From positions 1 through 64,000 of the forward strand of contig JAUIEJ010000013.1 of NCBI GenBank assembly GCA_030428885.1: 64,000 nucleotides of DNA, written 5' to 3'. A model generated the notes under the pieces. The model was not told where the DNA came from and did no database searches. It saw only the letters and a program-made list of their open reading frames with translations. Positions 1 to 59,466 of the stretch are shown piece after piece. The stretch is from Gemmatimonadota bacterium. GTDB lineage: Bacteria > Gemmatimonadota > Gemmatimonadetes > Longimicrobiales > Gaopeijiaceae. Made by a program: the position numbers and the translations under genes. Every line of letters begins with the position of its first letter. Within the stretch, counting starts at the first letter, position 1.

Positions 1-488
1 GCCGTCCGATTCGACGTCATCGACACCGTGCACGTCGCCGACGAGCCCGCCGATGCGCAGGCTCCACCCCAGCTCCCGATCTGCCACCCGCTTGAGGGAT
101 TGGCCGTCAGCGTCACGGTCGTTCCGTTCGAGAAGGTCCCTGTGTCGTTCGTCGTGCTCGTGTTCGTCGTGATCCCCGACGGACTCGAACTCACGCTCCC
201 CGACCCGCTCTGGCTGAAGCTCAGCGTCCGGGGCGCCTGCACGAAGTTCACCGATGCCGTCTGATTCGACGTCATCGACACGGTGCACGTCGTAGATGTC
301 CCCGCCGGGACGCATGCTCCGCCCCAGCCGCCGATCTGCCACCCGCTTGAGGGATTGGCCGTCAGCGTCACGGTCGTTCCGTTCGAGAACGTCTCCGTGT
401 CGTTCGTCGTGCTCGTGTTCGTCGTGATCCCCGACGGACTCGAGCTCACACTCCCCGAACCGCTCTGGCTGAAGTTCAGCGTCCGAGG
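1..488 (-). repeat. Two tandem 255-bp coding repeats (85 aa each)
   Basis: The blocks at 1-233 and 256-488 are nearly identical in DNA, with a period of exactly 255 bp, a multiple of three. They encode the two visible InlB-type repeats of the edge lipoprotein. Long stretches, such as the part around 79-150 against 334-405, match base for base including silent positions. This implies recent duplication or gene conversion. More copies may lie outside the window. Confidence 0.85.
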
Positions 489-908
489 CCCGCTATCGTT
501 CCCGCTTTCACGGACGTTGAAGGACCAAGGGGCAGACCAATTTCCCCACTCGCTTGGAGATCCCGCCCGAACCCGCCAATGGTACGACCCCTCACCCAAC
601 CCACTGTCCAACTGATAGCTCGGCGCGTCGACTTCAGCGGAGACTATCGGCTGTGAGAAGTCCGACGTTGCGGAGATTTGAATAGCGTACCGGGTCGCGC
701 CAGTCGTGGAAGCCCATCTGAAGGCCGGACTTGGGCCAACGTCCTGGCCCACCGGCGGGTTCGCTGGACCACTTGGAGGTGTCAGGTCGGGTCCCGGCGA
801 AGACAGAGGCGGATCGACCATTGTGCCATCGCCGCACGCAACGAGTAGAACTGATGCCACGATGAATCGAACGAGCCTAGCCGTTGACCGAACCCTAGCT
901 GCTCTCAT
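1..908 (-). CDS. Lipoprotein with Ig/FN3-like domain and InlB-type repeats (C-terminus beyond window)
   Basis: The frame stays open from the ATG at 908 to the window edge, so about 302 N-terminal codons are visible. The start MRAARVRSTARLVRF is basic, a hydrophobic stretch follows, and a lipobox LVAC puts the lipidated Cys at residue 25. This predicts an envelope-anchored surface or periplasmic lipoprotein. Residues about 45-135 look like an Ig/FN3-type sandwich (GATRYAIQIS, GSYHWRVRAG). From about 140 come two near-identical 85-residue units carrying GSGSVSSSPSGI, NGTTVTLTANPSSGWQIG, WGGAC and CTVSMTSN, the pattern of divergent InlB B-repeats (Flg_new_2-like) with a Cys pair per unit. Such proteins are usually adhesive or structural; the specific role is unknown. 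No Shine-Dalgarno is visible. It diverges from the SARP-type gene at 1251. Confidence 0.8.
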   Translation of the reverse strand, partial: MRAARVRSTARLVRFIVASVLLVACGDGTMVDPPLSSPGPDLTPPSGPANPPVGQDVGPSPAFRWASTTGATRYAIQISATSDFSQPIVSAEVDAPSYQLDSGLGEGSYHWRVRAGSPSEWGNWSAPWSFNVRESGNDSGPRTLNFSQSGSGSVSSSPSGITTNTSTTNDTETFSNGTTVTLTANPSSGWQIGGWGGACVPAGTSTTCTVSMTSNQTASVNFVQAPRTLSFSQSGSGSVSSSPSGITTNTSTTNDTGTFSNGTTVTLTANPSSGWQIGSWGGACASAGSSATCTVSMTSNRT

Positions 909-1250
909 GATGCAAGTCGCTTCGAGGAGGATGATGCCGGCCCACTCTCGGGCACCTGTCTGCCGCGCCTGTTCGGGCGGGTCGACACCAATGGCTTCCC
1001 ACCGTCACACCCGCGTCAAACGCCCCTCGGGGGGTTGTAGGTCGTGGCCGAAACGCCGTTTGGGCCGGTCGCTGGAATCTGCCTAGCGGGCGGATCCATG
1101 CGTCAATCCCCCGTCAATCCTCATGCTTCCACCCCCACCCCCTTGCCGTATTACGCTCCGCAGCCAATCTGAAGTAGACGGGTAGCGCAGATCCTCCGCA
1201 TCGTGGCTGGGGGGCTGCGGACCTTGGACCGTCGACGCGGAGCGACGCCC
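909..1250. other. Divergent intergenic region between lipoprotein and first SARP-type gene
   Basis: These 342 bases have no credible gene. They hold a two-copy direct repeat at 1102-1119 (listed separately), pyrimidine-rich tracts around 1130-1143, and a GGAG at 1239-1242 serving the ATG at 1251. On the minus strand the direct repeat reads as two TTGACG-like boxes, so it could also contribute to a promoter for the lipoprotein. I could not place a confident -10 box for either gene. Confidence 0.5.
1102..1119 (+). promoter_or_regulatory. Candidate SARP-type operator: GTCAATC direct repeat with 11-bp spacing
   Basis: GTCAATC occurs at 1102 and again at 1113, 11 bp apart or one helical turn. SARP/BTAD regulators typically bind direct heptamer repeats with 11-bp periodicity upstream of the -10 region. 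The same arrangement, GTCAATCC then CCGTCAA, recurs at 8681 upstream of asnB. The site is about 150 bp upstream of the first SARP-type gene. Binding is inferred, not shown. Confidence 0.45.
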
Positions 1251-4200
1251 ATGGCCCGGTTCGAGCTGCGGGTTCTCGGATCGCCACACATCCTGGATCA
1301 CGACGGCAACGTCGTCGATCTGCCCCTGGGGAAGCCCCTGGCGGCCCTGTGCTTTCTGGCGGTGGAGCCGACGGCGGTGCGTCGGTCCGATCTGGCGCGC
1401 CTGCTATGGCCGTCCAGCACCGAGTCCCGGGCGAAGGCGTCGATCCGTCAGGCGCTCTGGCTCATTCGGAAGCACACCGATCCCGACATCGTCATCGAGA
1501 GCAACGGCTCTCTCGAGGTGAACCCGGAGATCCTCGCGACCGATCTGACCGCCTTCGAGTCCGACCTGGTCTCCGGGCGATTGGAAGACGCCCTGGGCCG
1601 CTGGTCGGGCGGGCCCTTCGTCGGATTCGCGATTCCCGACGCCTCCGCGTGGCTGAAATGGGCCGACGGAGTTCGCAGCCGATGGGAGGCCCACCTGGGC
1701 CGCGCTCTCGAAGACCGGGCGGCCGCCACAGCCGGCGCCGAGCGAGTCGCGTGGCTCACGAGCGCGGTCGACGTGCGTCCCTACCGCGCTGAGACCTGGC
1801 TCGGCCTCGTCGAGGCACACGTGGAACTGCGGGACCTCGACCACGCCGAGGCCGCCCTGACCCAGCTTCGAAGCGTGAGCGACCCGGAGGACCACGAGGT
1901 CGTGGCCGAAGCCGAGGCCCGGGTCCGACTACTCCGACGATCCGCGTATGACGATCCGTCCGACCGCCTCGTGCCCGACTTCGTGGGCCGTGCGCCCGAG
2001 TTCGCCGAACTCATGGCGGCCTGGCGATCCGCTCGTTCGGGGCGTCCGCGGGTCGTCGGGCTCACGGGGCCCGCCGGCATCGGAAAGAGTGCGCTCTCCG
2101 CCGAAACAGTGCGGCATTGCGAGGCCGACGGCGCCGGAGTGGTGGAGACCCGGGCCGTCCGTGCCGAAGCGCGCTTGGAGTACGGCGTCTTCGCGAGCCT
2201 CGTCGCGGAACTCCTTCGGCGCCCCGGAGCCGCCGGGACCAGCTCCGCGTCGGCCCAGGTGCTGAAGAGCCTGGTCCCCTCGGAAAGCTCAACGGCACCC
2301 GTGGCCTCCCCCCGCGCCACGGTCCTGGCCGATGCGTTCGCCGACCTCCTCGCGGCAGTCGCCGACGAGACGCCGCTGCTGCTTCTCGTCGAAGACGCCC
2401 ACTGGATCGACACCGCATCGGCCGTGGTGCTGCTCCGAGCCGTTCGGAGTCTCCGCAGCACCCCGGTCTTGATGCTCTGGACGTGTCGGACGGAGGGAGC
2501 CGAGAACACCGGCTTCGCCGCCCTGACCGATGCCGCTTCCTCGGCAAGCGCCACGCTGCTCGAGCTTCCACCTCTCGGGCCGGCGGAAGTGGCCGAGATG
2601 GTGGGCCTCATGCTCTCCGGGAGTGACCCGGGCACGTTCGATGATCTGGCTCATCAGCTTCACCGGCGGTCCGAGGGCGTGCCCCTCCACATCGTGGAGC
2701 TCCTCCAGGATCTCCGGGACCGAGGCGCGATCGGAGTGGATAGCAGCGGACGATGGAGGCTGGCGGACGACATCGGCCCTACCCTGGAACTTCGCGAGAG
2801 CCTCGAGGAGACCCAGGGAGACCGCGTCGAACGGCTTACGCCGGAGGCCCGGCGGCTGGGCGTGCTCTTGTCTCAGGCCTTCGACCCTCTGACGGTGGAC
2901 GCGCTCCGCCTTCGCTCGGCTCTCACGGCTGATCAATGCACCGAGGCCCTGAGCCAGTTGTTGGTTCGGGACCTGGCGCGCTGGACGCGGGACGACCGGG
3001 TGGTGATTGCCCACGATTCTCTGCGGGCGGTGTTCCAGGCGGACAGCCCATCGACGCCGTCGGGGGCGACCGCGAAGCGATGGCGCTGGTGGAGTACAGC
3101 CGCCGGGATCACCCTGTTGGTGGCCGGGGCCTGGGCGGTTCGGGGCGGTGCCGCGGAAGAGGGAGCCGCGGCCTACGGCGGGGGCACACTGATGCTCCGC
3201 AGTGCGGACTCGATCCTGATGCTTCAACCAGGCGTCGAGCCAGGTCAGCTCAACCGGGTGGGGAGCCACCCCATCCCGGACGGCATCGGACTGAGGACGG
3301 CAATCCAGCATCGAAACGGCGAGCTTTGGATGGGGGGGACAGCCCTCTCCGACGTCGTCGCCCCCCCAGCGGCGGTGGTCTGGAACGGATCCAGGCTCGA
3401 CACGTTGATCACGGTGGCGGGTGATGCGTCTGCGGCGATCCTGCGACCGCAGGGGGACGCGGCACTCTTGCATGTCCAGAATCCGGACACTTCGACCTAC
3501 CGGTCCATGGTGGTCCGGATGGACCTCGAGAGTGGTGACACGACGGTCCTCGCCGCGGGGTTGGGCAGCTACTCCGCCGCTGGCTGGGCTCCCGACGGCC
3601 AGAGCGTCATCGTCCGCGTGGACAACACCGTCGATTCCATTCGCGTCGTCGACCCATCCGGCTGGGTGCTCGACCAGTTCGAAGCCCCCATCGCCGAGCT
3701 CCTCGGCGCCGAGCCCTGCGGCGAAGGAGTCTTGGTGTGGGGCACCCCACCGGCCCAGCCGATCCGCGCATGGCTGTGGCACCCCAGCGAGAGCGGGCCC
3801 ACCCAGATCGACTTGGGAGTGGCCCAGTTCGCAGGGGCTACGTGCTCTCCTGATGGCTCCATGGTGGCGACGGTGGAGGGCAACCCTACCGAGGAGTATC
3901 TCGTAGTTCGCGACCTCGATGGTGCCGAGTTCGAGCGGTTCAACCTGACCGGGCGTGGAGTGCACTGGGTCGAGTGGCAGCCACCCATTGAAGCCGCACC
4001 GGTGTTGGTCGCCGTGGGGGCGACTTCGGTTGAGCTGGAACGGGGGGCTCGCCGACGGGTCGAGGCCTTCGCCCTCGACGCCGATGGCCGACGGACAACG
4101 GCCCAGCTACGGTGGTCATCCTCGGACCCGGCGGTTGCGTCGGTCCGCGCCGACGGCACCATCGTCGCGAACCGAACGGGCCGCGCCACAATCGCCGCTC

Positions 4201-4865
4201 ACGTTGACGGGTGGCTCTCCGATTCGCTCTTGGTCACCGTCGTGCAGAGGAACCGGATCGACGAGCTCGTGTTCGTCGACTCCTTCCCCGACTTCGATAC
4301 CATTCGATGGAATCCCGTCGGTGACTCCACGCCCGTGCCGATACGCATCGGGGCCCGACCGGCGCTTCGACTGAACGGCAATGGACGGTATCGCGACGCC
4401 ATCGACACGACCGAACGCCTCGACTTCGGCCCGGGGGGGACGGTCGAGATCCTCTTCCGCCTCCGCGACTTCACCCGCATCGATCGGCAGCGAGTGCAGC
4501 TTTGCCTGGACGATCGACATCGAACCCACGGGGTGCCGGCTCGGTTCACATGCGTCACATGGCCCGCCGCCGAGGGATTCGACTTCGACCCTGACGCGAT
4601 TCTGCTCCAGGTCTCCGGTGGCACCCTCGGGAAGATCCCGCTCGGGGGTCGGGTCCTTCCAGGGGAATGGAACACCCTTGCGATCCAGGTGCGGGCGGAC
4701 GGCACGGTCTCGGCCGTCGCCAATGACTCCATCCTCGCGGTGCACCCCGCACCCCTGCGGATGGAACCCGACGCGCGATTCCATATTTCCATTGCACATT
4801 CCGCCGTAGACACCGAGCTCCTCCTGCGAGAAGTGTCGGTCTGGTCCGAGGAGCGGTATCGATGA
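1251..4865 (+). CDS. Membrane-anchored SARP/BTAD regulator fused to NTPase and extracytoplasmic sensor-like region (copy 1)
   Basis: 1,204 residues. The start MARFELRVLG was chosen over a GTG 48 bases upstream because GGAG lies 8 bases before it and the SARP domain begins there. Order: winged-helix DNA-binding domain (1-90), BTAD helical repeats (about 90-235), and an AAA/STAND-like NTPase with Walker A GPAGIGKS (273-280) and Walker B LLLLVED (376-382). One hydrophobic helix follows at about 611-633, preceded by Lys/Arg/Trp residues as expected for N-in topology. Beyond it come a TolB/PD40-like propeller (WAPDGQS), a Big_2-like Ig domain (about 926-1000; RWSSSDPAVASV) and a LamG-like C-terminus. 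This resembles a CadC-type one-component sensor with an NTPase inserted. Its stop overlaps the next start (ATGA), so the two paralogues are probably translationally coupled. Ligand and targets are unknown. Confidence 0.85.
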   Translation: MARFELRVLGSPHILDHDGNVVDLPLGKPLAALCFLAVEPTAVRRSDLARLLWPSSTESRAKASIRQALWLIRKHTDPDIVIESNGSLEVNPEILATDLTAFESDLVSGRLEDALGRWSGGPFVGFAIPDASAWLKWADGVRSRWEAHLGRALEDRAAATAGAERVAWLTSAVDVRPYRAETWLGLVEAHVELRDLDHAEAALTQLRSVSDPEDHEVVAEAEARVRLLRRSAYDDPSDRLVPDFVGRAPEFAELMAAWRSARSGRPRVVGLTGPAGIGKSALSAETVRHCEADGAGVVETRAVRAEARLEYGVFASLVAELLRRPGAAGTSSASAQVLKSLVPSESSTAPVASPRATVLADAFADLLAAVADETPLLLLVEDAHWIDTASAVVLLRAVRSLRSTPVLMLWTCRTEGAENTGFAALTDAASSASATLLELPPLGPAEVAEMVGLMLSGSDPGTFDDLAHQLHRRSEGVPLHIVELLQDLRDRGAIGVDSSGRWRLADDIGPTLELRESLEETQGDRVERLTPEARRLGVLLSQAFDPLTVDALRLRSALTADQCTEALSQLLVRDLARWTRDDRVVIAHDSLRAVFQADSPSTPSGATAKRWRWWSTAAGITLLVAGAWAVRGGAAEEGAAAYGGGTLMLRSADSILMLQPGVEPGQLNRVGSHPIPDGIGLRTAIQHRNGELWMGGTALSDVVAPPAAVVWNGSRLDTLITVAGDASAAILRPQGDAALLHVQNPDTSTYRSMVVRMDLESGDTTVLAAGLGSYSAAGWAPDGQSVIVRVDNTVDSIRVVDPSGWVLDQFEAPIAELLGAEPCGEGVLVWGTPPAQPIRAWLWHPSESGPTQIDLGVAQFAGATCSPDGSMVATVEGNPTEEYLVVRDLDGAEFERFNLTGRGVHWVEWQPPIEAAPVLVAVGATSVELERGARRRVEAFALDADGRRTTAQLRWSSSDPAVASVRADGTIVANRTGRATIAAHVDGWLSDSLLVTVVQRNRIDELVFVDSFPDFDTIRWNPVGDSTPVPIRIGARPALRLNGNGRYRDAIDTTERLDFGPGGTVEILFRLRDFTRIDRQRVQLCLDDRHRTHGVPARFTCVTWPAAEGFDFDPDAILLQVSGGTLGKIPLGGRVLPGEWNTLAIQVRADGTVSAVANDSILAVHPAPLRMEPDARFHISIAHSAVDTELLLREVSVWSEERYR

Positions 4866-7800
4866 GCAGCGGCTCCGCCCCTTTCACCCTCCACCTCCTC
4901 GGCTCGCCTCGGGTCGAGGGCCTGAACGGCACCGCCGAACTCCCCCTTGGAAAACCCCTGGCCCTGCTCTGCTACCTGGCGCTGGAGCCCTCAGGCGTCC
5001 GCCGTTCCGATCTGGCACGCATGCTCTGGCCCTCCTCTCCCGAGTCCCGGGCCAAGGCCTCCATCCGCCAGGCCCTCTGGCTGATCCGCAAGGAGACCGA
5101 CGGCGACATCGTTCGCGAGGAGCAGGGCGAGCTCACCCTCGACGATACCGTGGTCCAGACCGACCTGGCGGCCCTGGGAGGGGACCTCGCCCGGGGCGAC
5201 CTCGCCGAGGCCCTCGAGAGGTGGAACGGGGGTCCCCTGAGCGGTTTCAGCGTTCCCGACGCCCGACCGTGGCTCGCCTGGGCAGACACGGTCCGAGGCC
5301 GTTGGGAGAGCCAGGTGGGACAGGCCGTCGAAGACCGGGCCGCGGCTGCCGAGGGCCACGAGCGGGCCGACTGGCTCCGCCGGGCCGTCGAGGTGCGTCC
5401 CTACCGGGTGGAGGCATGGCTCGCCCTCGTGCAGACACTCGTGGACCTGCGCGACGCGGAGGGCGCGGACGAGGCCATGCTTCAGCTTCGCCAGGTCGCC
5501 GACGAAGACGACATCGAACTCGTCGGTGAGGCGGAGCGGCGAATCCGGCTCCTTCGGCGTACGGCATACGGCGACCCGGGCGAACGTCTCGTACCCGAAT
5601 TCGTGGGCCGGTCGGAGGAGTTCTCCGCCCTCATGCAGGCGTGGCGAAGCGCGCTTTCCGGCAGGAGTCGGGTGGTGGGCATCGTGGGAGAGGCCGGCAC
5701 CGGCAAGACCGCGCTGGCCGCCGAGACCCTGCGGTACGCGGAGGTGGACGAAGGGCAAACCCTCGAGGTCCGGGCCGTCCGCGCCGAGGCCGGGCTCGAC
5801 CTCGGCGTCGTGGGCAGCGTCGTCGCCGACCTCATTCGGCGTCCGGGCGCGGCAGGCACCAGTCCAGGGTCGGCTCAGGCCCTCCGCAGCCTGGTTCCCT
5901 CCGAGGGCGACGCCGTAGCACCCGTTCCCCAGTCCACGACCCTCGCGGACGCCCTCGCCGACCTCCTGGACGCCGTGTCCCACGAGGCCCCGGTCCTGTT
6001 GGTCGTGGACGACGCACATTGGATCGACGAGGCCTCGGCCATCGTTCTCCTCCGGGCGGCGCGCCTGCTCCGCGGATCCCGGGTCCTGATGGTCTGGACC
6101 TGCCGTCCGGGAGAGCACGGGACTCCGAACCGGGGGCTCACCGCGCTGCGAAGCGCCGTGGAGGAAGGCTCGGGCGCCGTGGTGGAGCTCGGTCCGCTGA
6201 CCCAGAGCGAGGTCCGGGAATTGGTGGCGCTGCTCCTCCCGGACTCGGACCCCGAGGTGCTCGCCAACCTCGCCACCCGGATCCACGTCGCGTCGGGTGG
6301 TTCGCCCTTCCACATCGTTGAGATCCTCCAGGTGCTCCGAGGCCAGGGGCTCCTGGGACTGGACGAAGACGGGCTCTGGCTGCTCGCCGAAGACACCAGC
6401 GCCGAGGCCGTTGAGCTGCCCTCTTCCCTCCCCGACGCCCTCGCCCTTCGAATCGAGGAACTGTCGGACCAGGCACGCCGGGTCGGCGCGGAGTTGGCGG
6501 TGGAGGGCGGGCCCCGGGAGCCCTCGGCGCTTCAGCGGTCCGGCGAATTGAGCCGCACCGAGGTCGAAGCGGCCGTGCGCACGCTCCTCGATCGGGGCCT
6601 GGTGCGGTGGACTCGGGACGACCGCCTGGAACTCGCCCACGAAAAGCTGGCGGAGGCGTTTCGAGCCCGCGCCTCGGACGCTACGAGGGGAGCCGTGCGC
6701 CCCCATTGGGGACGATGGATGATCGCGGCGACGGCGGTCTCGATCGCAGCCGCAGCTCTCTTCCTCCTTCGGCCCCGATCCGCCCCTGCTCCCCATTTCG
6801 GTGGCGGGACACTCTGGGTGATGGAAGGACGACAGTGGGTCGGGCACCGATTCCGGGGGGGCAACGACCCGTGGGAGCGGGTGGATTCGATCCGCATTCC
6901 CGACGGCGTCCAGTCCCTCAACCCGCGGGAGAGGATCCGCCTGCCCGACGGTACGTGGGATGTCGTGATCGCCGGGTACTCCGCCAGCGATCAAGAGGAA
7001 GCACCCGACGCGATCCTCGTTCGGAACGGGCAGGTGGACACGGTCTACTCGAGCCCCGGCGATGACGCGTTGAAGCTCATCGGACCGGACGGGCGGACGG
7101 CCCTGCTCCACGTGGAGAACCCGGACTCGTCCCGCTACCGATCCATGCTCGTGCGTGTCGACCTGTGGGGTCGCCGGGATACGACCGTGCTGTCGGCGGG
7201 CGAAACAGGCAGCCACGCCCTCGACTGGAGTCCAGATGGTCGGATTCTAGCCGTTCGAATCGACGCGCCCTGGGACACCTTGGCCCTGATCAGCCCCTCC
7301 GGTCGTCGCCTGGCCACGCTCCCGTCTCCCGGCCCCCATCTTCGGGATGCCGTGCCTTGTGGGCGCGACACCTACCTCCTTTCATCGATTCCCGCGGCGG
7401 AACTGACTCGCCACGACCTCTGGCGGCGGTCGACGGGGGAATTGACACGGTTCCGACCCCGCTACGTTCCACACCAGCCCCCCGTGTGCTCGCCTGACGG
7501 AAGCGCCTTCGCCTACGTCACGGGCGACGGCGACGGCGGTGGTCGGCTCGTCGTGCAGGATCTCGAGGGTGTGGTCCTGTCAAACGGCCCAGTCGTGCCT
7601 CGACGGACTCCACTTCTATGGATTCCTGAACGCGTTGGTGCCCCGGGGCGCGTGGAGATCATCGCAGCCGACGATACTCTGGATCGGGGGAGCCGATCGA
7701 CCCCTGTGGCTCGCGTATACAACGCAAGCGATCGGGTCATGGAACGGGAGGTCCGTTGGGAGTCGGCCCAGCCAGAGATCGCCTCAGTGAATGCGGACGG

Positions 7801-8587
7801 CACGGTGACCGGCAATCGCCCGGGTCAGGCCACACTGCGAGCCGTCGTGGACGACTGGCTCCGTGACTCGGTGTCGATCCAGGTTGTGGCGGCGCCTGGG
7901 GACACAGCCGTCCTCGCTCTTGCAGACTCCTTTCCGTCGATCGACACCACCCGCTGGATCGTGCTTGGTGACCCGCCCCCCGCAGCCCTGTTCGACGACG
8001 ACGCCCGTCCGGCCCTGGACCTCACGGGCGACGGGCGCTACTCCGACGGGATCGCGTCCTGGGAGGAGTTTGCCGTCCCGGGCGGCGCCACACTCGAAGC
8101 CACCTTCCGACTCACAGAATTCGCTCGACCGGATCGGAATCGGATCGTCGTATGCCTGGTTGACGGAGATCCCCCTCCCCGCCCCGGCGTATTCAGCGAC
8201 TGGACTCTGCGCCAGGAGGCCTGCGTCATCTGGCCGGCCGCCAGCGGCCCCGCCGACATCGACACGACGGCGATCACTCTGTCGTCGGCCGGGCAGCCGG
8301 TTGGTGCGGTCCCCATCGGATCCCGACTGCGATCCGGCCGCTGGGAGCGTTTGGGCGTCCAGCTTCGCGCCGACGGGCGGTTCTCGGTCACCGTCAACGA
8401 CACGGTGGTGGCCGTCCATCCCCTCGGCGTGGCAAACCAGCCCGACACTCGGTGGCGAATGGTGGTCCGTGGCGCCGGCGTCGACACCCGCCTCCTCCTC
8501 CGGGACGTCACGTTGTGGCGGGAGGAGCGGTACGGTGTCCTCGAGGAGCCTCCGAACGATGGTCCGGCGGGCGGGGGTCCCCCGTAG
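4862..8587 (+). CDS. Membrane-anchored SARP/BTAD regulator fused to NTPase and extracytoplasmic sensor-like region (copy 2)
   Basis: 1,241 residues, a full-length paralogue of the preceding gene with the same domain order. The SARP winged helix and BTAD share PLGKPLA, RRSDLAR and SRAKASIRQALWLIRK with copy 1. Walker A is GEAGTGKT (276-283) and Walker B LLVVDDAHWID. One membrane helix lies at about 619-640, after an Arg/Trp-containing flank. The outer part again holds DWSPDGR (PD40-like), a Big_2-like unit (RWESAQPEIASVNADG) and a LamG-like domain containing DGRYSDGIASW. DNA-binding and NTPase parts are better conserved between copies than the outer parts, suggesting different signals feeding similar outputs. 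The start overlaps the upstream stop by 4 bp. The tail ends in a Gly/Pro-rich stretch. The two proteins could act as a heteromeric sensor; that is inference. Confidence 0.85.
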   Translation: MSSGSAPFTLHLLGSPRVEGLNGTAELPLGKPLALLCYLALEPSGVRRSDLARMLWPSSPESRAKASIRQALWLIRKETDGDIVREEQGELTLDDTVVQTDLAALGGDLARGDLAEALERWNGGPLSGFSVPDARPWLAWADTVRGRWESQVGQAVEDRAAAAEGHERADWLRRAVEVRPYRVEAWLALVQTLVDLRDAEGADEAMLQLRQVADEDDIELVGEAERRIRLLRRTAYGDPGERLVPEFVGRSEEFSALMQAWRSALSGRSRVVGIVGEAGTGKTALAAETLRYAEVDEGQTLEVRAVRAEAGLDLGVVGSVVADLIRRPGAAGTSPGSAQALRSLVPSEGDAVAPVPQSTTLADALADLLDAVSHEAPVLLVVDDAHWIDEASAIVLLRAARLLRGSRVLMVWTCRPGEHGTPNRGLTALRSAVEEGSGAVVELGPLTQSEVRELVALLLPDSDPEVLANLATRIHVASGGSPFHIVEILQVLRGQGLLGLDEDGLWLLAEDTSAEAVELPSSLPDALALRIEELSDQARRVGAELAVEGGPREPSALQRSGELSRTEVEAAVRTLLDRGLVRWTRDDRLELAHEKLAEAFRARASDATRGAVRPHWGRWMIAATAVSIAAAALFLLRPRSAPAPHFGGGTLWVMEGRQWVGHRFRGGNDPWERVDSIRIPDGVQSLNPRERIRLPDGTWDVVIAGYSASDQEEAPDAILVRNGQVDTVYSSPGDDALKLIGPDGRTALLHVENPDSSRYRSMLVRVDLWGRRDTTVLSAGETGSHALDWSPDGRILAVRIDAPWDTLALISPSGRRLATLPSPGPHLRDAVPCGRDTYLLSSIPAAELTRHDLWRRSTGELTRFRPRYVPHQPPVCSPDGSAFAYVTGDGDGGGRLVVQDLEGVVLSNGPVVPRRTPLLWIPERVGAPGRVEIIAADDTLDRGSRSTPVARVYNASDRVMEREVRWESAQPEIASVNADGTVTGNRPGQATLRAVVDDWLRDSVSIQVVAAPGDTAVLALADSFPSIDTTRWIVLGDPPPAALFDDDARPALDLTGDGRYSDGIASWEEFAVPGGATLEATFRLTEFARPDRNRIVVCLVDGDPPPRPGVFSDWTLRQEACVIWPAASGPADIDTTAITLSSAGQPVGAVPIGSRLRSGRWERLGVQLRADGRFSVTVNDTVVAVHPLGVANQPDTRWRMVVRGAGVDTRLLLRDVTLWREERYGVLEEPPNDGPAGGGPP

Positions 8588-8680
8588 GAAACAAAAGACG
8601 ATCGGACACCGGCGCCCGGGCGCGGCCCCCCGCGTAGCACCGAACACCGGGCCGATCGGAATGGAAGATCGGTGCGCGGT

Positions 8681-8698
8681 GTCAATCCACCGTCAAAA
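8681..8698 (+). promoter_or_regulatory. Second copy of the candidate SARP operator, upstream of asnB
   Basis: GTCAATC at 8681 and GTCAAAA at 8692 are 11 bp apart, and the joined core GTCAATCC-N-CCGTCAA matches the site at 1102. It lies about 110 bp upstream of the asnB ATG. A weak promoter-like pair (TCGACG, 16 bp, TATCCT ending at 8741) follows. The rest of the 204-base gap holds a GCGCCCGGGCGC palindrome and a CGATCGG/CCGATCG inverted pair without a T-tract. Confidence 0.4.
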
Positions 8699-8791
8699 GC
8701 GCCGTTCCGCCCTCGACGCCTGCCGACCGAGCCCCTATCCTCAGAGGTTCGCGCCTCGAGTGTTCGGGCCTTCGTTCCGATCATCCCCCCC

Positions 8792-10747
8792 ATGTGCGGC
8801 TTCGCTGGATTCATCGACCCCGCCCTCCCCGGCGCCCACGGTCCCGACGACGTGCTCCGGGCCATGGTGTCCACCATCGAGCACCGGGGGCCCGACGACG
8901 TCGGCTACGAGAGCGACCCCGACCTGGGGGTGTTCCTGGGCTTCCGACGCCTCTCCATCCAGGACCTGAGCGCCCTGGGGCACCAGCCCATGGAGTCGGC
9001 GTCGAAGCGCTTCGTCATGGTGTTCAACGGCGAGGTCTACAACTTCCTGGAACTCCGGGTGGAGCTTCAGGAGCTGGGATTCTCGTTCCGGGGCGGGAGC
9101 GACACGGAGGTGATCCTGGCGGCCTTCGAGGCCTGGGGACCCGAAGCGGCCGTGGCCCGCCTCCGGGGCATGTTCGCCTTCGCCCTCTTCGATCGGCACG
9201 AGCGGGCCCTCTGGCTCGCCCGGGACCGCATGGGCATCAAGCCCCTCTACGTCTCCCGCCGGGGACCGGCCCTGGTCTTCGGCTCCGAGCTCCGGACCCT
9301 ACTTCCCCACCCCCGCATCGAAGCCCGGGGCGACCGGGAGGCGGCCTGGCACTACCTGCGCACGCTCTACGTCCCGGCGCCCCTCTCCATGCTCGAGGGC
9401 GTGGAAAAGCTCCTGCCGGGCACCCTCGTGCGCTTCGGACTCGGGCCCGACGGCGTGGAGTCCCGTCGCGAGCACCGCTTCTGGAATCTGGAAGAGGTGG
9501 CGTCGGCCTCGGTGGAGACCGGCCGCACCCCGGACGAGGCGGTGGACCAGCTCCACGACATCCTGGCCGAGTCGATCCGGCTTCGCCTCGTGGCGGACGT
9601 TCCCGTGGGAGCCCTCCTCTCCGGGGGCATCGATTCGTCGCTGGTGGTGGCCCTCATGGCAGCCCAGATGGACCAGCCGGTGCGGACCTTCACCATCCGC
9701 TTCGACGATCCCCGCTTCGATGAAGGACCCATGGCCGCCGAGGTGGCGGAGCGGCTGGGCGCCCGCCACACCGCCGTGGAGATGCCCACGTCCCGGGTGC
9801 GGGATCTGATCCCCGAACTGGGCCACATCCTCGACGAACCCCTGGCCAATCCCTCCATCCTCCCGACCCTCCTGGTGTGTCAGGTGGCCCGGCAGGACGT
9901 GGTGGTGGCCCTCTCGGGCGACGGCGGCGACGAACTCTTCGGGGGCTACAACCGCTACGTCCAGGCGCCGGGCATCATCGGCAAGGCGTCGGCCATTCCC
10001 TCGGCGCTGCGCCCACTGGCGGCCCGCCTCATGGAAGCGGGCGTGGGGAGCTCGGCGGTGGAGGCCCTGGGGCGTCGCCTCCAGCCGGGGAACTACGGCG
10101 ATCAGCAATCGTTCTCGGCCCGCCTCCAGCGCGCGGCGGGGATCATCGGGGCCCGGGACGCCCGAGCCGCCTACCTCGAGGCCATGGCCGTGGGACTCCC
10201 CTCCCCTCCCGTCCCCGGGGCCCCGGGACCCAGCCCTCGCATCGACACCGGCGCCTTCGATCGCCACGACGGCAGCCTCTACGCCCGCATGGCGCTCCTG
10301 GACCAGCTCGACTACCTCCCCGACGACCTCCTGGCCAAGGTGGATCGGGCCTCCATGTGGACCGCCCTGGAGGCCCGGGTGCCCATCCTGGACCACAAGG
10401 TGGTGGAGTTCAGTTGGACGCTCCCCGACGACCAGAAGATCCGGGACGGCGTCACCAAGTGGCCCCTGCGCCGCCTGGTGGAGCGCTACCTGCCCAAAGA
10501 GCTCATGGAGCGCCCCAAGATGGGCTTCACCGTACCCGTGGAGCGGTGGCTCCGGGAAGACATGTCGGACTGGATGGCCGAACGCCTCCACCCCGACCAC
10601 CTGGCCCAGCGCGGCCTCTACGACCTCTCCGCCGTGGCCGACGTGCGGCGGCAGTTCGAGGGGGGCCGGGGCGATCTTGGGCTGGCCCTGTGGACCCTGG
10701 CGGTGCTGGAGGACTGGTCGGCCCGTCGCGGCGTCACGTTCGACTGA
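8792..10747 (+). CDS. asnB: Asparagine synthase (glutamine-hydrolysing) / amidotransferase
   Basis: Transfers glutamine amide nitrogen to an AMP-activated carboxylate, classically aspartate to asparagine. 651 residues. The start was chosen so that Cys2 (MCGFAGF) is the N-terminal glutaminase nucleophile; an upstream in-frame start would bury it. The class II glutaminase half has NGEVYNF and the GSDTEV loop. The synthetase half has the pyrophosphate loop SGGIDSS (277-283) and SGDGGDELFGGYNRY. It is about 100 residues longer than E. coli AsnB, like the amidotransferases often found in polysaccharide loci, and rfbB lies tail to tail with it. A sugar-amidating role is therefore possible. Stop codons of asnB and rfbB overlap by 14 bp. 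Confidence 0.9.
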   Translation: MCGFAGFIDPALPGAHGPDDVLRAMVSTIEHRGPDDVGYESDPDLGVFLGFRRLSIQDLSALGHQPMESASKRFVMVFNGEVYNFLELRVELQELGFSFRGGSDTEVILAAFEAWGPEAAVARLRGMFAFALFDRHERALWLARDRMGIKPLYVSRRGPALVFGSELRTLLPHPRIEARGDREAAWHYLRTLYVPAPLSMLEGVEKLLPGTLVRFGLGPDGVESRREHRFWNLEEVASASVETGRTPDEAVDQLHDILAESIRLRLVADVPVGALLSGGIDSSLVVALMAAQMDQPVRTFTIRFDDPRFDEGPMAAEVAERLGARHTAVEMPTSRVRDLIPELGHILDEPLANPSILPTLLVCQVARQDVVVALSGDGGDELFGGYNRYVQAPGIIGKASAIPSALRPLAARLMEAGVGSSAVEALGRRLQPGNYGDQQSFSARLQRAAGIIGARDARAAYLEAMAVGLPSPPVPGAPGPSPRIDTGAFDRHDGSLYARMALLDQLDYLPDDLLAKVDRASMWTALEARVPILDHKVVEFSWTLPDDQKIRDGVTKWPLRRLVERYLPKELMERPKMGFTVPVERWLREDMSDWMAERLHPDHLAQRGLYDLSAVADVRRQFEGGRGDLGLALWTLAVLEDWSARRGVTFD

Positions 10748-11804
10748 GGCGCTCCCGGCACCACGTCTCGTGGGCCACGAACCAGGCCACCGTGTCCCGT
10801 AGCCCGGCGCCCCACGTCACCTCCGGTCGCCACCCCACGGCCCGCTCCACCGCCGACGGGTCGGTGGCGTAGCGCCGGTCGTGCCCCGGCCGGTCGTCCA
10901 CGAAGGTCACCAGGTCGGCGTAGGGCCGCCCCGACGGCGCCGGGGCGAGTTCGTCCAGGAGCCCGCACACCGCCCTCACCACCTCCAGGTTCGTCTTCTC
11001 GCAACGGGCCCCGATGTCGTAGGTCTCGCCCACGACGCCCCGATCCAGCACCGCCGCCAGGGCACGGGCATGGTCGTCGACGTGGATCCAGTCCCGCACG
11101 TTGGTCCCGGCCCCGTAGAGGGGAATCGGCTCCCCCGCCAGCGCCCGGAGCACCACCACGGGAATCAGCTTTTCGGGAAACTGCCACGGCCCGTAGGTGT
11201 TGGTGCCGTGGGTGACGATGGCCGGCACCCCGTAGGTATGGGACCACGCCCGGACGAAATGGTCCGATGCGGCTTTGCTCGCCGCGTAGGGAGAGTGGGG
11301 CGCGTAGGGGCTGCCCTCGTGGAACCGCTCGGGCCCGGTGAGGGGGAGGTCGCCGTAGACCTCGTCGGTGGAGACGTGGACGAGACGAAACGACTCGCGG
11401 TGGCCGGCGCCGTCTCCATCGAGCCAGGTCCGCACGACATCGAGGAGGGTGGCCGTACCCACCACGTTGGTCCGGACGAAGGCCGCCGGGGCGTCGATGG
11501 AGCGGTCCACGTGGGACTCCGCTGCCAGGTGCACCACCGCCCCCGGCCGATGCCGGCGCACCACCTCCGTGAGGGCCGGCCCGTCGCACACGTCGACGTG
11601 CTCGAAGCTGTGCCGGGGGTGGTCGGCCAGGCCGGCCAGCACCCGGAGATCGCCCGCGTAGGTCAGGGCATCCACGGTGACGACCCGGTGGGCGGTGCGT
11701 CCGATCAGATGCCGCACCAACGCCGACCCCACGAACCCCGCCCCCCCCGTGACGAGAACGGTGCGAGGGGCGAGCCCTGGAGCGGAGGCGGTGGAATCGG
11801 TCAT
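10734..11804 (-). CDS. rfbB: dTDP-glucose 4,6-dehydratase
   Basis: Converts dTDP-glucose to dTDP-4-keto-6-deoxyglucose for rhamnose and other deoxysugars of surface glycans. 356 residues, the normal size. Extended SDR fold: NAD-binding GGAGFVGS near residue 20, the HVSTDEVYGD segment with Thr-Asp-Glu catalytic residues, and the YAASK pair (Tyr, Lys). The family signature before the substrate loop reads GTNTYGPWQFPEKLIP instead of the common SNNYGPYQFPEKLIP. The ATG at 11804 was chosen because the Rossmann strand begins shortly after it; the longer open frame upstream is Arg-rich and uncharacteristic. No rfbA, rfbC or rfbD is adjacent, so it is separated from the rest of its pathway. Confidence 0.9.
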   Translation of the reverse strand: MTDSTASAPGLAPRTVLVTGGAGFVGSALVRHLIGRTAHRVVTVDALTYAGDLRVLAGLADHPRHSFEHVDVCDGPALTEVVRRHRPGAVVHLAAESHVDRSIDAPAAFVRTNVVGTATLLDVVRTWLDGDGAGHRESFRLVHVSTDEVYGDLPLTGPERFHEGSPYAPHSPYAASKAASDHFVRAWSHTYGVPAIVTHGTNTYGPWQFPEKLIPVVVLRALAGEPIPLYGAGTNVRDWIHVDDHARALAAVLDRGVVGETYDIGARCEKTNLEVVRAVCGLLDELAPAPSGRPYADLVTFVDDRPGHDRRYATDPSAVERAVGWRPEVTWGAGLRDTVAWFVAHETWCRERLSRT

Positions 11805-11913
11805 CCCGATACGATGCCGCCGTCCCGGGCCCGAGGCCACCCCCGGACCTGACGCCTCCACCGCACCGGAGCGCCGATCCCCCCGGGTCGCGCCGCTGCG
11901 AGCCCCCCGAAGT

Positions 11914-12069
11914 CTCCACAACGGCTCGCCCCCGGCGCAGTGTGTCCGTTTGGGGGCGCCATACCGCCTCGATCCTCCACAACGCCGGGCGAGCGAGCCG
12001 GTTGTGGAGAGTTGATGCGCCCTGGGCGCTCGAATCTTCCACGGCGCACGATTTCGTGCACTTGTGGAG
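11914..12069. repeat. Symmetric cluster of four CTCCACAA / TTGTGGAG motifs
   Basis: CTCCACAAC occurs at 11914-11922 and 11975-11983. The reverse orientation GTTGTGGAG is at 12001-12009, with a near copy (TTGTGGAG) at 12062-12069. The outer and inner pairs share one centre near 11992, and the spacing between copies on each arm is 60-61 bp. The inner pair with flanking CCGG can fold into a hairpin (CTCCACAAC, bulged G, CCGG against CCGGTTGTGGAG). Flanks also partly match (AAnTCTCCACAA). It lies upstream of rfbB and looks like a multi-site operator or a structured RNA element; function unknown. Confidence 0.5.
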
Positions 12070-12108
12070 AGTTGGGGGCGTTCGGAAATCCCCCCCGCAA
12101 ACGCACGA

Positions 12109-12137
12109 CCCCCGCCCCGCACGAGGCGGGACGGGGG
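12109..12137 (-). terminator. Hairpin terminator after the TonB-dependent receptor
   Basis: Read on the minus strand, a GC-rich stem (CCCCCGTCCCGC against GCGGGGCGGGGG, one mismatch) with a four-base loop lies 25 bases after the receptor stop. It is followed by GTCGTGCGTTT rather than a clean T-run. The terminator at 15365 has the same stem edge and the same CGTGCGTTT tail, which supports both. Confidence 0.6.
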
Positions 12138-12161
12138 CCGGCGAACTCGGGGTTTCAGCGA

Positions 12162-14906
12162 TCAGTAGCGGATCGAGAACCCGACGTTGAACGAGCGCGG
12201 CAGGCCGATGAAGATCTCGGCATCGTCGGCGTCGTGGTCTCCGTCGAACCCGTTGAAGCTCGAGTTGTCGACGGCGTCCTGCACGTACATCTGGTCGAAC
12301 AGGTTGAAGACGTTCACGAAGAGGCGCACGTCTCCGCCCCGGGCACCCGGCAGCAGGTTGCTGACGTTGTACGACCCGTGGAGGTCGAACACGCTGTAGC
12401 CCGGCGCCTGCCAGGACTGGGTCGTGTCGTCCGGATCGGTCCGGCTGAACGGATCGTACTCGGCCCAGTGCTTGCCGAAGAGCTTGCTCACGAGCTGGAG
12501 CGACGCTCCGGCGGCCGGGAAGACCGACGCCGCCAGGGCGAACTGCGTCTGGGGCGCGTCACCGACCTTCAGGCCGTCGAGATAGAAGTCGAACGTCTGG
12601 ACCTCACCCGAGCCCTCGTCGGGGCGGTAGGTGCCCGACACGTCGTTGATGTACTCCCACTTGCCCAGCGACGCCGCGGCGTCGAACCGGAAGAGGGGGC
12701 TGGGCTGGAAGGCGCCCGACGCCTCGATCCCCATGTGGCGGGCATCGAGTCCCAGCAGGTTCACGAGACCGTCGGTGTTGTTGCCGTCGATGTTCCGGAC
12801 GAACTGGTTCCGGGTCCGGTCCCGCCACGTGGTGTGGTAGGCGTTGATGTCGAACGACACGCCGCTCTCCAGCGAGCGGTACGTGAAGCCGCCCTCGAAC
12901 GAGAGGAAGGTCTCGTTGGTCGGGTCGGGGTTCTTCACACCCGCGCCGTCGTCGATGACGCCGTCGAAGATCGGCACCTTGGAGACGTAACCCAGGTTCG
13001 TGTAGGTCGACCACTCGTCGGTCAGGTTGTAGACCGCACCACCCTTCACCTGGTAGCCCGTCAGGTTGCCCGACTCGAGCTTCAGGGTCTCGCTCGTGTT
13101 GACCTCGTCCCGCACGAAGAAGTTCTCGTACGAGTAGGAGATCTGCGACAGGCCGAACATCCCGAAGATCGAGCCCTTCTGGCTCGACTTCTCGGCCTGG
13201 AAGTGACCGCCGACCCAGTCCACCGTGTTCTGGTCGTTGTAGTCGATGCGGTCGCCGTAGGTGCGCTGCTGCGCGCCCTCGAACTCGTTGTCGTCATCGA
13301 TCCAGAACGACCCGCCCAGCAGGTCCCGGATGTCCCGGTAGTGGCTGATGGTGGCGGTCCGCCAGTCGACGCCCACCTCGGTGGTGAAGCCGTTGGCGAA
13401 GTCCTTCCGGAGCTTCGAGATCACGCCCCAGGTGTCCTGGCTGTTCACCGACGAGCGCAGGATACCGCCCGAGCCGATGTCGCTGGCCTGGTTGATGGCG
13501 ATGGTGGCGTCCCAGTCGGGATAGCGCTGCGTGTAGTCGTAGATCCACTGCACGCGACCGGCGTCCCGATTCTCGATGGTGCCCGAACCGCCGCCGTCGC
13601 CGCCCGAGTAGTACCCCACGGTGGAGAGGGTGAGGCCGTTCCCGAAGTACGAGTACCAGTTGAGGTTGGCCTGGGGCTTGTGGAAGTAGTTCTCCCGCTC
13701 CTGCAGGTAGCCGTCGAGCTGACGGTCGAAGCGACCGGTCTCGGGACCCACCGAGGCGTACTGCTGCTCGCGGTACGACGTGCTCACGGGCCCGATGTTC
13801 GGGCTCCAGCGCTTGCCGTCGATCTCGGGGGCCTGGGGGAAGTCGCTGAGGGCGGCCGGCTCATACCCGTCGAGGCCCGCGGCGAACTCCTGGTCGATGG
13901 TCCCGGCATTGAGCTTGTAGAGGTTCTGCCCGTGGGTCTGGGGCGCGCCCACGATGTAGAACTCGAGGCGGTTGGTGGGGCTCGCCTGGAACGACGAGGC
14001 CAGGTAGTAGGACCAGGCGTCGGTGTAGGCCCCGATGTACTGGCCGTCACCCGTCTTCTTCGACAGCACGCCCGTGATGGCGAACCGACCGATCTCACCG
14101 GTGGACGCGGTGGCCGTGGTCTTGAGGAACGACCCGCTGCCGAACTCCTGCTTGAGCTGCACCCCACCGGCCTGAGCCGTCGGGTCGGTGATCACGTTCA
14201 TGGTACCACCGATGGAGGGCGTGGCCAGGTTGACGGCCGACAGCCCCCGCTGGACCTGGATGCTGGTCGAGGCGTCGCCCAGACCGTCCCAGTTGGACCA
14301 GTACACCCACCCGTTCTCCATGTCGTTCACGGGCACGCCGTTGATCATGACGGCCGTGTTGCGCTGGCTGAAGCCCCGGACGTTGATCCGGGCGTCACCG
14401 GCGCCTCCACCCTGCTGGGTGGAATAGACGCTGGGCGTGGTGTTGAGGACCAGGGGCAGGTCGCGGGAACCGAGCTGGTTCTGGAGCTGCACCTTGTCCA
14501 CGTCGGTGAAGGCCACGGGCGTCTTCCGCTCCGTGGCCCGGGAGGCGAACACCTCGAGGCCGGCGATGGAGACCGCCTCGCTGGTCATCTCGAAGTCGAC
14601 GGTGCTGGCCTGGCCGGCGCTCACCATGACGTCGGCGCGGGTCTGGCTGGTGAAGCCGATGATCTGCACCTGAACCGTGTACCGGCCCGGGCGCAGGTTC
14701 GGAATGGTGTACCGACCCTGTGCGTCGGCCAGGGCGCCCGACTGGGCACCCGACGACGCCTCGGTCACGACGACCTGGGCGCCGGAGAGGGTCTGCCCCT
14801 CCGACGTCACCCGGCCCTCGATGGACCCGGGCGCCTGAGCGGCCAGGGGGGACCCCCCGAACGCCAGCAGCGCCGCGAGAACCGCGGGCAGACAGAGCTT
14901 TCTCAT
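12162..14906 (-). CDS. TonB-dependent outer-membrane receptor with carboxypeptidase-regulatory-like domain
   Basis: 914 residues. Energised by TonB-ExbB-ExbD, such receptors import a scarce ligand across the outer membrane; the ligand here is unknown. A signal peptide (MRKLCLPAVLAALLAFGG, cleavage near AAQA) precedes a carboxypeptidase-regulatory-like Ig domain (about 27-110; GRYTIPNLRPGRYTVQV). The plug domain follows (about 125-240; DARINVRGFSQRNTAVMING, PSIGGTMNVIT). The rest is a beta-barrel ending SIRY, the aromatic C-terminus typical of such barrels. The ATG at 14906 was chosen because AGGAGG stands 6 bases upstream and the signal peptide starts there. No SusD-like partner is adjacent. 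The leader carries a terminator-like hairpin just before the ribosome binding site. Confidence 0.9.
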   Translation of the reverse strand: MRKLCLPAVLAALLAFGGSPLAAQAPGSIEGRVTSEGQTLSGAQVVVTEASSGAQSGALADAQGRYTIPNLRPGRYTVQVQIIGFTSQTRADVMVSAGQASTVDFEMTSEAVSIAGLEVFASRATERKTPVAFTDVDKVQLQNQLGSRDLPLVLNTTPSVYSTQQGGGAGDARINVRGFSQRNTAVMINGVPVNDMENGWVYWSNWDGLGDASTSIQVQRGLSAVNLATPSIGGTMNVITDPTAQAGGVQLKQEFGSGSFLKTTATASTGEIGRFAITGVLSKKTGDGQYIGAYTDAWSYYLASSFQASPTNRLEFYIVGAPQTHGQNLYKLNAGTIDQEFAAGLDGYEPAALSDFPQAPEIDGKRWSPNIGPVSTSYREQQYASVGPETGRFDRQLDGYLQERENYFHKPQANLNWYSYFGNGLTLSTVGYYSGGDGGGSGTIENRDAGRVQWIYDYTQRYPDWDATIAINQASDIGSGGILRSSVNSQDTWGVISKLRKDFANGFTTEVGVDWRTATISHYRDIRDLLGGSFWIDDDNEFEGAQQRTYGDRIDYNDQNTVDWVGGHFQAEKSSQKGSIFGMFGLSQISYSYENFFVRDEVNTSETLKLESGNLTGYQVKGGAVYNLTDEWSTYTNLGYVSKVPIFDGVIDDGAGVKNPDPTNETFLSFEGGFTYRSLESGVSFDINAYHTTWRDRTRNQFVRNIDGNNTDGLVNLLGLDARHMGIEASGAFQPSPLFRFDAAASLGKWEYINDVSGTYRPDEGSGEVQTFDFYLDGLKVGDAPQTQFALAASVFPAAGASLQLVSKLFGKHWAEYDPFSRTDPDDTTQSWQAPGYSVFDLHGSYNVSNLLPGARGGDVRLFVNVFNLFDQMYVQDAVDNSSFNGFDGDHDADDAEIFIGLPRSFNVGFSIRY

Positions 14907-14928
14907 GGTCTTCCTCCTAAGGGACAAC

Positions 14929-14956
14929 AAAAACCCCGACTCAACCGGAGTCGGGG
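14929..14956 (-). terminator. Terminator-type hairpin in the receptor leader (candidate attenuator)
   Basis: On the minus strand CCCCGACTC, loop CGGTT, GAGTCGGGG forms a perfect 9-bp stem followed by TTTTT (14933-14929). It ends 11 bases before the AGGAGG of the receptor gene. A promoter cannot fit downstream of it, so receptor mRNA should contain it. That makes it a candidate attenuator rather than an ordinary gene-end terminator. Confidence 0.7.
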
Positions 14957-15138
14957 TGGGGGAACAACAAACGTTTCCAACGCGGCGTACAGAACCGTGC
15001 TACCCCACGAGAGGGCACCGACGAAGGGGTGGGAGACCCCGGACTGGAGGGCGGTGAAATCCGCCCGATCACCGGGCCCGAAGCGGGGCATGCTCGCAGT
15101 TCCGAAGGTGGATGGCGAGGGCGATCCTGACGACGGAA

Positions 15139-15170
15139 AAAAGCTAAACAGGCCCCGTTACAAACTCAAA
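15139..15170 (-). promoter_or_regulatory. Candidate promoter of the TonB-dependent receptor
   Basis: On the minus strand TTTG (15170-15167), 20 bases, then TAGCTTTT (15146-15139). This matches the Bacteroidota-type -33/-7 pattern TTTG-N19-21-TAnnTTTG better than the classic sigma-70 boxes. Transcription would start near 15131, giving a leader of about 225 nt. Confidence 0.4.
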
Positions 15171-15236
15171 GGGTGTCGGTAACGCCCACGTAAATCCGCC
15201 ACATTCCGACCCCCTTTCCGCCTTCCTGACGCCACC

Positions 15237-15265
15237 GTCAGATGTTCCCGACAGGAACACCTGAC
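15237..15265. repeat. Inverted repeat GTCAGATGTTCC / GGAACACCTGAC
   Basis: Two 12-base arms with one mismatch and a 5-base spacer, about 70 bp upstream of the candidate receptor promoter. The core CAGATGTTCC reappears exactly on the minus strand at 20260-20251, upstream of the large lipoprotein gene. A dimeric repressor or activator site is plausible; no T-tract argues against a terminator. Confidence 0.45.
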
Positions 15266-15364
15266 GCGCACCGTGGACGCTCGCCACACCGGCCCGCAGA
15301 AGAACCTCGTCCCCCCACCGACGAGGCCGGCCCGCAGGGCGCCCGGAGGGAGGAAACGCACGAA

Positions 15365-15392
15365 CCCCCGCCCAGCCGAAGCTGGACGGGGG
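15365..15392 (-). terminator. Hairpin terminator after the large lipoprotein, UUCG loop
   Basis: On the minus strand the stem CCCCCG, mismatch, CCAGC closes on a TTCG tetraloop (C-UUCG-G in RNA) about 50 bases after the stop at 15441. It is followed by TTCGTGCGTTT. The stem edge and tail resemble the terminator at 12109. Confidence 0.65.
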
Positions 15393-15440
15393 CCGTGTGT
15401 TCCTGCTGTCCGATCCTACTGGACAGCCCTCCGAAGAGGC

Positions 15441-20039: not shown

Positions 20040-20195
20040 GTCTGCTCTGTCCATGGTGTGGTTGGAGAATGCGCCCGGTCGGAGCCGGACGGCGCCGCTT
20101 GGGGCGCAAGACCATCCCGGGCGAATCGCAAGAGGCGTGCCACGAATACGCCCCGGGAAATGGCCTACCACACAACGACTTAGAGATGATGCCCG

Positions 20196-58905: not shown

Positions 58906-59019
58906 CCGACGAGTGGATCCGAGCCGTTCCGGGGGCACCGGTCACGGGGGTCCGTCGTCACCCTTCCCTTCCGCAAATACCATACCGGCCCCGGGCCGAT
59001 CCCTTACACCCGTAGATCG

Positions 59020-59466
59020 TCACGGCCCCGTCACGGGCCGCCCGCCGGGGGCGAAGGGCCCGTCCAGCGCCTCGATGGCGCCGCGCATCTCGTCGGGAAT
59101 CGCCTTGCTCCGCGCGGCTTCGTAGTCGTACATGATCTGGGTGGTGGCCCCGGAGACCAGGAGCTCCCCCTCCCCGGACCGCACCTCGTACTCCATCTCG
59201 AAGTGGCGCTTGCCCAGGCGCGACACCCGCACCGCCACATCGAGGCGTTGAGGCCACAGGATGCGGGCGTGGTACCGCATCCGAGCCTCGCCCAGGATGT
59301 AGTCGACGTCGTCCAGGGTGCCCCGCCCCACCACCTCCCGCCAGTACGCCGCCCGGGCCTCCTCGAAATACACCAGGGCGTGGGAATGGTGGGCATGCCC
59401 CCCGATGTCCACGTCCTTGAAGCGGACGTCGACGGGGTGGTGGAAGCGAAAGGGGGACTCGTCCAT
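59020..59466 (-). CDS. Acyl-CoA thioesterase, YbgC/4HBT hotdog family
   Basis: 148 residues, a single hotdog domain. Expected to hydrolyse short- to medium-chain acyl-CoA. VRFKDVDIGGHAHHSHALVYFEEAR matches the family's N-terminal catalytic segment, with VDIGGHAHHSHALVY where YbgC has D(S/T)D..G.VYHANY; the catalytic Asp is kept as Asp in KDVDIGG. RLGKRHFEMEYEV is the core strand. GGGAGA lies 4 bases before the ATG at 59466. It diverges from the thiO-like gene by 130 bp. Confidence 0.8.
   Translation of the reverse strand: MDESPFRFHHPVDVRFKDVDIGGHAHHSHALVYFEEARAAYWREVVGRGTLDDVDYILGEARMRYHARILWPQRLDVAVRVSRLGKRHFEMEYEVRSGEGELLVSGATTQIMYDYEAARSKAIPDEMRGAIEALDGPFAPGGRPVTGP

Follow-up and report, generated by a model that had tools for sequence, protein, structure and literature searches.

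A predicted SARP-type operator upstream of a regulator gene pair and an asnB-like gene in a Gemmatimonadota bacterium

Two 7-bp direct repeats at positions 1102–1119 of the window (the whole 64,000-nt stretch analyzed here) form a predicted conserved operator of the SARP type. We consider it probable, and the best reading of the locus, that the SARP-type regulators encoded next to the site control their own expression and that of an asnB-like gene located downstream. The site is rare in the genome and conserved at both promoters, where it lies at fixed distances from promoter-like hexamers, and the first regulator has a SARP fold in the structural model. An initial annotation had suggested an autoregulatory site that could also control a divergent surface lipoprotein gene. 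The first part of this suggestion is supported by the rarity of the operator-like site before the SARP-type gene and by its presence in a congener, G003, and, in degenerate form, in a second one, G001; the lipoprotein output is not.

The repeat reads GTCAATC-CCCC-GTCAATC on the plus strand. The two GTCAATC 7-mers (1102–1108 and 1113–1119) are separated by a 4-bp spacer, which gives an 11-bp period, and the identical run at this period is 9 bp long. The repeat described in the initial annotation is thus exact in the sequence, its ~7-bp units and 11-bp period are indeed in the style of SARP sites, and the region is divergent as claimed, with the lipoprotein gene running on the minus strand from 908 and the SARP-type gene starting with the ATG at 1251. 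To estimate how often such repeats arise by chance, 5000 dinucleotide shuffles of the 342-bp intergenic region (909–1250) were used as the null model. Runs of ≥9 bp were obtained with P = 0.0016 at period 11 and P = 0.035 when all periods between 8 and 24 were allowed. The P value for GTCAA-N6-GTCAA was 0.0002. Judged by these values, the local surprise is only moderate. Within the 64-kb window, 1102–1119 is the only repeat with a period-11 run of ≥9 bp. The decisive evidence for the site is its rarity in the genome and its conserved position, not the local statistics.

The repeat precedes the genes of two SARP-type regulators, regulator 1 (1251–4865, plus strand, 1204 amino acids) and regulator 2 (4862–8587, plus strand, 1241 amino acids). 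The start of the second gene overlaps the stop of the first by four bases, and the two look like one coupled operon. Since the N-terminus is conserved, the ATG at 1251 was preferred to the GTG at 1203 as the SARP start. The gene after the pair (8792–10747, plus strand; Asn_synthase and GATase_7 domains) encodes an asnB-like amidotransferase of the asparagine synthase family, whose best NCBIfam match, the XrtA/PEP-CTERM polysaccharide amidotransferase, is below the model cut-off. A sugar-nucleotide dehydratase gene (10734–12122) converges on asnB. Adjoining these polysaccharide genes on the minus strand (12162–20171) are two long CarboxypepD_reg genes, the first with a TonB-receptor plug. On the other side of the intergenic region, the divergent lipoprotein-like gene (3–908, minus strand) contains near-identical InlB-B-type repeats and is cut by the edge of the window and contig. 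No Rfam match was found in 1–12500.

When the entire genome (5,393,349 bases) was searched for GTCAATC-N4-GTCAA with ≤1 mismatch, two matches were obtained, both exact, at 1102 and 8681. The shorter GTCAA-N6-GTCAA also had two matches in the 5.39 Mb, at these same places only. The motif is therefore rare and does not occur randomly at many sites. The 8681 copy, a putative asnB operator GTCAATC-CACC-GTCAAAA (8681–8698, plus strand; GTCAA-N6-GTCAA at 8681–8696), is located 111 bp before the asnB ATG. It had been overlooked in the initial annotation and provides the strongest support for the site reported there. A second, weaker pair, CGTCACACCCGCGTCAAAC (1003–1021, plus strand), likewise overlooked, lies 98 bp upstream of the 1102–1119 pair and has one mismatch to the degenerate unit pair CGTCAAWSNNSCGTCAAWS. 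With ≤2 mismatches, CGTCAAWSNNSCGTCAAWS matched seven places in the genome, the best being 1101 (no mismatches) and 1003 (one mismatch), while 8680 is among the five with two mismatches. One locus thus contains three repeat pairs, all inside 7.7 kb. None of the two-mismatch matches on contigs C2, C10, C17, and C20 is located before a SARP gene, and these were taken as chance. Elsewhere in the window, CGTCACGGCCCCGTCACGG (59018–59036) is an 11-bp direct repeat of the GTCACGG type with four mismatches to the operator.

A corresponding arrangement is seen in G003, a genome of the same genus. Downstream of its SARP pair, whose N-termini show 65% and 57% identity to that of regulator 1, come a methyltransferase-like gene and then asnB (76% identical). 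The site GTCAATCCCGCGTCAATC (L129:5923) precedes the ATG of the first SARP gene by 150 bp, compared to 149 bp in the genome under study, and GTCAAAGCAGCGTCAACG (L129:15478) precedes the asnB ATG by 137 bp. A third SARP gene of this congener, a paralogue (G003:C4), has GTCAAAGACCCGTCAAAC (L132:6889) 130 bp before its ATG. In G001, the orthologue (58% identical) is preceded by GCAAACGGGCGTCAAACTCCCATCAATG (L130:9130), which consists of three degenerate tandem 11-bp units; the last two start 128 bp before the SARP ATG. The motif is thus not absent from orthologous promoters, being kept in G003 and degenerate in G001. Two results of this comparison count against our reading: The asnB promoter of G001 is itself without repeats, and no such site was found in G002, where the closest SARP homologue is 43% identical. 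A search of the order (154 genomes) revealed no close orthologue outside the genus.

Six genomes of the genus (27.0 Mb) contain 11 matches to GTCAA-N6-GTCAA, five of them at SARP/asnB promoters (in G000, the genome under study, and G003) and six elsewhere; the latter also count against our reading. A good copy in G001 (L130 18743–18761, L221:270) is located 1.23 kb upstream of asnB between convergent genes. Judged by eye, the genes beside this copy are ECF sigma factor–, anti-sigma factor–, and lipoprotein-like. Another copy in the same genome, GTCAAAGTCGCGTCAA (G001:C1:413728, L214 ~5744), adjoins the start of a gene that by eye is response regulator–like. The copy in G004 (C223:440, L216 440–455) precedes, in inverse orientation, a polysaccharide gene that by eye is CapD-like. 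No SARP homologue was detected in G004, a genome with 78% completeness, and this copy is a further point against. Two matches in G010 were taken as chance: The first covers part of the start codon of a distant SARP gene, and the second is 1.6 kb off. For matches in G060, G068, G078, G107, G111, G123, G129, and G132, no SARP gene was recognized by eye in the open reading frame lists of the loci.

Promoter-like hexamers are located at fixed distances from the repeats. In all four SARP promoters compared, a conserved TTGC begins 23 bp after the repeat end; here, it is part of TTGCCG (1143–1148, plus strand), the putative −35 element of the SARP operon. In both asnB promoters with the site, 14 bp separate the repeat end from TCGACG-N17-TATCST, which reads TCGACG-N17-TATCCT in the genome under study (putative asnB promoter, 8713–8741, plus strand) and TCGACG-N17-TATCGT in G003. 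Upstream of G001 asnB, the −10 TATCAT is retained and the repeats are gone. When the four SARP promoters were aligned on their repeats, 29 of 210 columns were invariant. Of these, 11 fall within the repeat of 18 bp, and another 6 belong to the block that surrounds TTGC. These putative SARP and asnB promoters are suggested by conservation, with no confident assignment of a SARP −10. None of them was found by a generic consensus promoter scan, so they would be weak or nonconsensus. The repeats would lie upstream of the presumed −35 in both cases. The fixed 23- and 14-bp spacings lead us to read the site as an operator upstream of −35, similar to that of PimR rather than that of AfsR. The gene downstream of the SARP pair, asnB, is probably a conserved second target, predicted from sequence and not mentioned in the initial annotation.

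The N-terminus of regulator 1 was modeled using an alignment of 25 N-termini, with a mean pLDDT of 95.1. The best PDB matches of the model found by Foldseek were AfsR (8hvr/8k60, initiation complex) and EmbR, with E values from 5.9e-9 to 2.0e-6. Superposition on these structures gave VIA Z of 16.7 to 14.9 (220 to 224 aligned, rmsd of 4.4 to 4.6), and the next match had Z of 13.6. A Pfam search over the N-terminal homologues matched BTAD in 17 and Trans_reg_C in 7 of the 25. Regulator 1 alone had no single-sequence Pfam match to Trans_reg_C or BTAD, which counts against the SARP assignment, and a single-sequence PDB search gave weak AfsR matches along with others that were taken as chance. On the basis of the model, we assign the N-terminus as a SARP domain, an OmpR-type winged helix followed by BTA.

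The SARP domain is followed by an AAA_16 ATPase, with an additional subthreshold TOMM kinase/cyclase match, then by what is likely a membrane helix, and then by a beta part that comprises a propeller, Big_2, and a last beta domain. By hydropathy only, the top hydrophobic 19-mer falls at residues 612 to 622 (~615) in five of seven proteins of the genus; in regulator 1 and the G002 protein, it falls in the ATPase part. The C-terminal 571 residues gave an all-beta model (mean pLDDT of 80.3, pTM of 0.55) with matches to TolB-type propellers and sialidases, and a Big_2 domain is present. The last beta domain may be lectin-like. The regulators appear to be membrane-anchored, with a predicted topology that places the DNA binding and ATPase parts inside and the propeller, Ig, and beta part outside. 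When the genome contigs were scanned with regulator 1, 80 loci were obtained, whose best segments were 24 to 35% identical and fell nearly always in the ATPase part; these loci were set aside. A third, distant SARP-like match in the genome (G000:C11:281898-282260, L148) is 30% identical over 122 residues.

We also assessed 61 upstream regions of SARP-type genes: 59 from roughly the best of a longer match list, plus those of regulators 1 and 2 from the window. The set does not include L174 and L148, and L145 contributes only 12 bp of upstream DNA. GTCAA-N6-GTCAA was detected in 3 of the 61 regions, all from this genus, a narrow distribution that counts against our reading; GTCA-N7-GTCA in gene direction was detected in 5. 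Among the 61 sequences long enough for a period comparison, asnB included, 8 had perfect 7-mers at period 11, compared to 7 at period 12, 7 at period 22, and 0 to 4 at the rest of periods 8 to 24. Since the values for periods 12 and 22 are nearly equal, we do not claim a general period-11 enrichment upstream of SARP genes. A literature search for Gemmatimonad with AfsR found nothing, and among the matches listed for Gemmatimonad with SARP or BTAD, no such operator is described. SARPs are known mainly as activators of actinomycete antibiotic clusters.

A different protein could bind the site. If another OmpR/PhoB-type response regulator recognized it, for example as a PHO box–like element, that protein would control the SARP operon and asnB; we regard this as unlikely. 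In the PHO box, a 4-nt spacer separates two direct repeats of 7 nt, and the Escherichia coli core is CTGTCAT (PMC4415409), so that the 7 + 4 layout and GTCA-N7-GTCA are common to it and the present site. In addition, the G001:C1:413728 copy adjoins a response-regulator gene, and the G004 copy is present without a SARP match. However, GTCA-N7-GTCA was found in none of the phoU/pst stretches of G000, G001, G003, G004, and G005 (L208, L209, L211, L212, and L213), and neither of its two occurrences in the phoU/pst stretch of G002 (L210) is at pstS. A global regulon would also be expected to have many sites, whereas the genome has two. The PHO box was rejected as a simple answer, although this result says no more than that the motif is missing from the local phosphate genes.

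An output directed mainly at the divergent lipoprotein gene, a target that the initial annotation had envisaged, is similarly improbable. The lipoprotein and SARP genes share the divergent region, and because the 1003–1021 pair is ~95 bp from the lipoprotein start codon, this gene may still be an output. However, both the 1102–1119 and 1003–1021 pairs are oriented toward the SARP gene, and the 1003–1021 pair has no counterpart at that place in G003, G003:C4, or G001. In G003, moreover, the divergent neighbor of the SARP gene is an NAD-dependent epimerase instead of a lipoprotein, yet the SARP-side site and the TTGC distance are kept; the comparison therefore does not support the lipoprotein as output.

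Negative autoregulation, in which the protein bound at the upstream site would limit its own expression and repress asnB as well, seems to us slightly less likely again. The position of binding alone does not fix the sign of regulation, and regulators often repress themselves. However, the repeats do not overlap the promoter but precede its presumed −35, and the studied SARPs AfsR and PimR are activators (PMC10936776, PMC5930380). Last, a chance repeat in a GC-rich genome is highly improbable: The any-period shuffle value and the chance-looking matches in G010 and other relatives would allow it, but only two copies exist in 5.39 Mb, both in the SARP/asnB locus, and their conserved positions in G003 already contradict it.

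Returning to the favored reading, autoregulation with control of asnB, each of the two 7-bp repeats would be occupied by one protomer, the two protomers being neighbors on the same helix face. We infer that the binders are the SARP-type regulators themselves and that they would activate transcription in a class I–like manner from upstream of the −35. The targets would be their own two-gene operon and asnB, whose promoter bears the second copy. Being anchored in the membrane, as predicted, the regulators might relay a signal from the envelope or from polysaccharide to asnB and, through it, to the synthesis of surface polymers. Tentatively, and with somewhat less than even confidence, we propose that the membrane-tethered SARP pair is a one-component envelope sensor, the outer part of which reads the state of the surface polymer and which activates its own operon and the polysaccharide amidotransferase gene via an almost private operator. 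The locus provides a candidate operator for an unstudied SARP branch, in which the SARP domain is combined with what is likely a membrane helix and with an outer part resembling a sensor. This branch would be tied to surface-polymer genes rather than to antibiotics. With two promoters and two proteins, the locus offers a small and direct test system.

Among known systems, ToxR/CadC-type regulators combine an inner winged helix, a membrane helix, and a large outer part, an architecture that the present regulators may share; here, in contrast, a BTA domain and an ATPase are located between the DNA binding part and the putative helix. A term search of the main text of a membrane-regulator survey found no mention of SARP or BTAD (PMC10269533). 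The PHO box of PhoB has the same 7-nt direct repeats, 4-nt spacers, and GTCA core (PMC4415409), whereas the present motif was not found at the pst genes of the genus, and in the genome under study it occurs at the SARP/asnB locus only. The direct repeats bound by SARPs generally have a period of 11 or 22 bp, and 8 bp lie between the 3′ repeat and the −10 (PMC10936776); the present repeats, with units of ~7 bp, agree with this in period. AfsR of Streptomyces coelicolor shares with regulator 1 the SARP fold, the ATPase-type domain next to it, and two 11-bp direct repeats as a site. However, the afs box is centered at −29.5 and overlaps the −35 (PMC10936776), whereas here 14 bp (asnB) or 23 bp (SARP operon) separate the repeats from the presumed −35, and the canonical 8-bp distance from the 3′ repeat to the −10 is not seen at the inferred promoters. 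AfsR also has a C-terminal TPR domain, whereas the corresponding part here probably contains a membrane helix, followed by beta domains. The closest parallel in layout is PimR of Streptomyces natalensis, a SARP-LAL regulator that recognizes CGGCAAG heptamers spaced by 4 bp; they are located upstream of the −35, a position that fits class I activation (PMC5930380). Its sites have two or three units, as do those described here, and the heptamer resembles CGTCAAT of the present site. PimR acts on the gene of another regulator within an antibiotic cluster, while here the predicted targets are the regulators' own operon and an amidotransferase gene, and the regulator, unlike PimR, is apparently membrane-anchored. 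At the promoters as inferred, the site thus corresponds to a PimR-like SARP-LAL operator, and the upstream-of-−35 geometry of PimR appears in an unstudied SARP branch.
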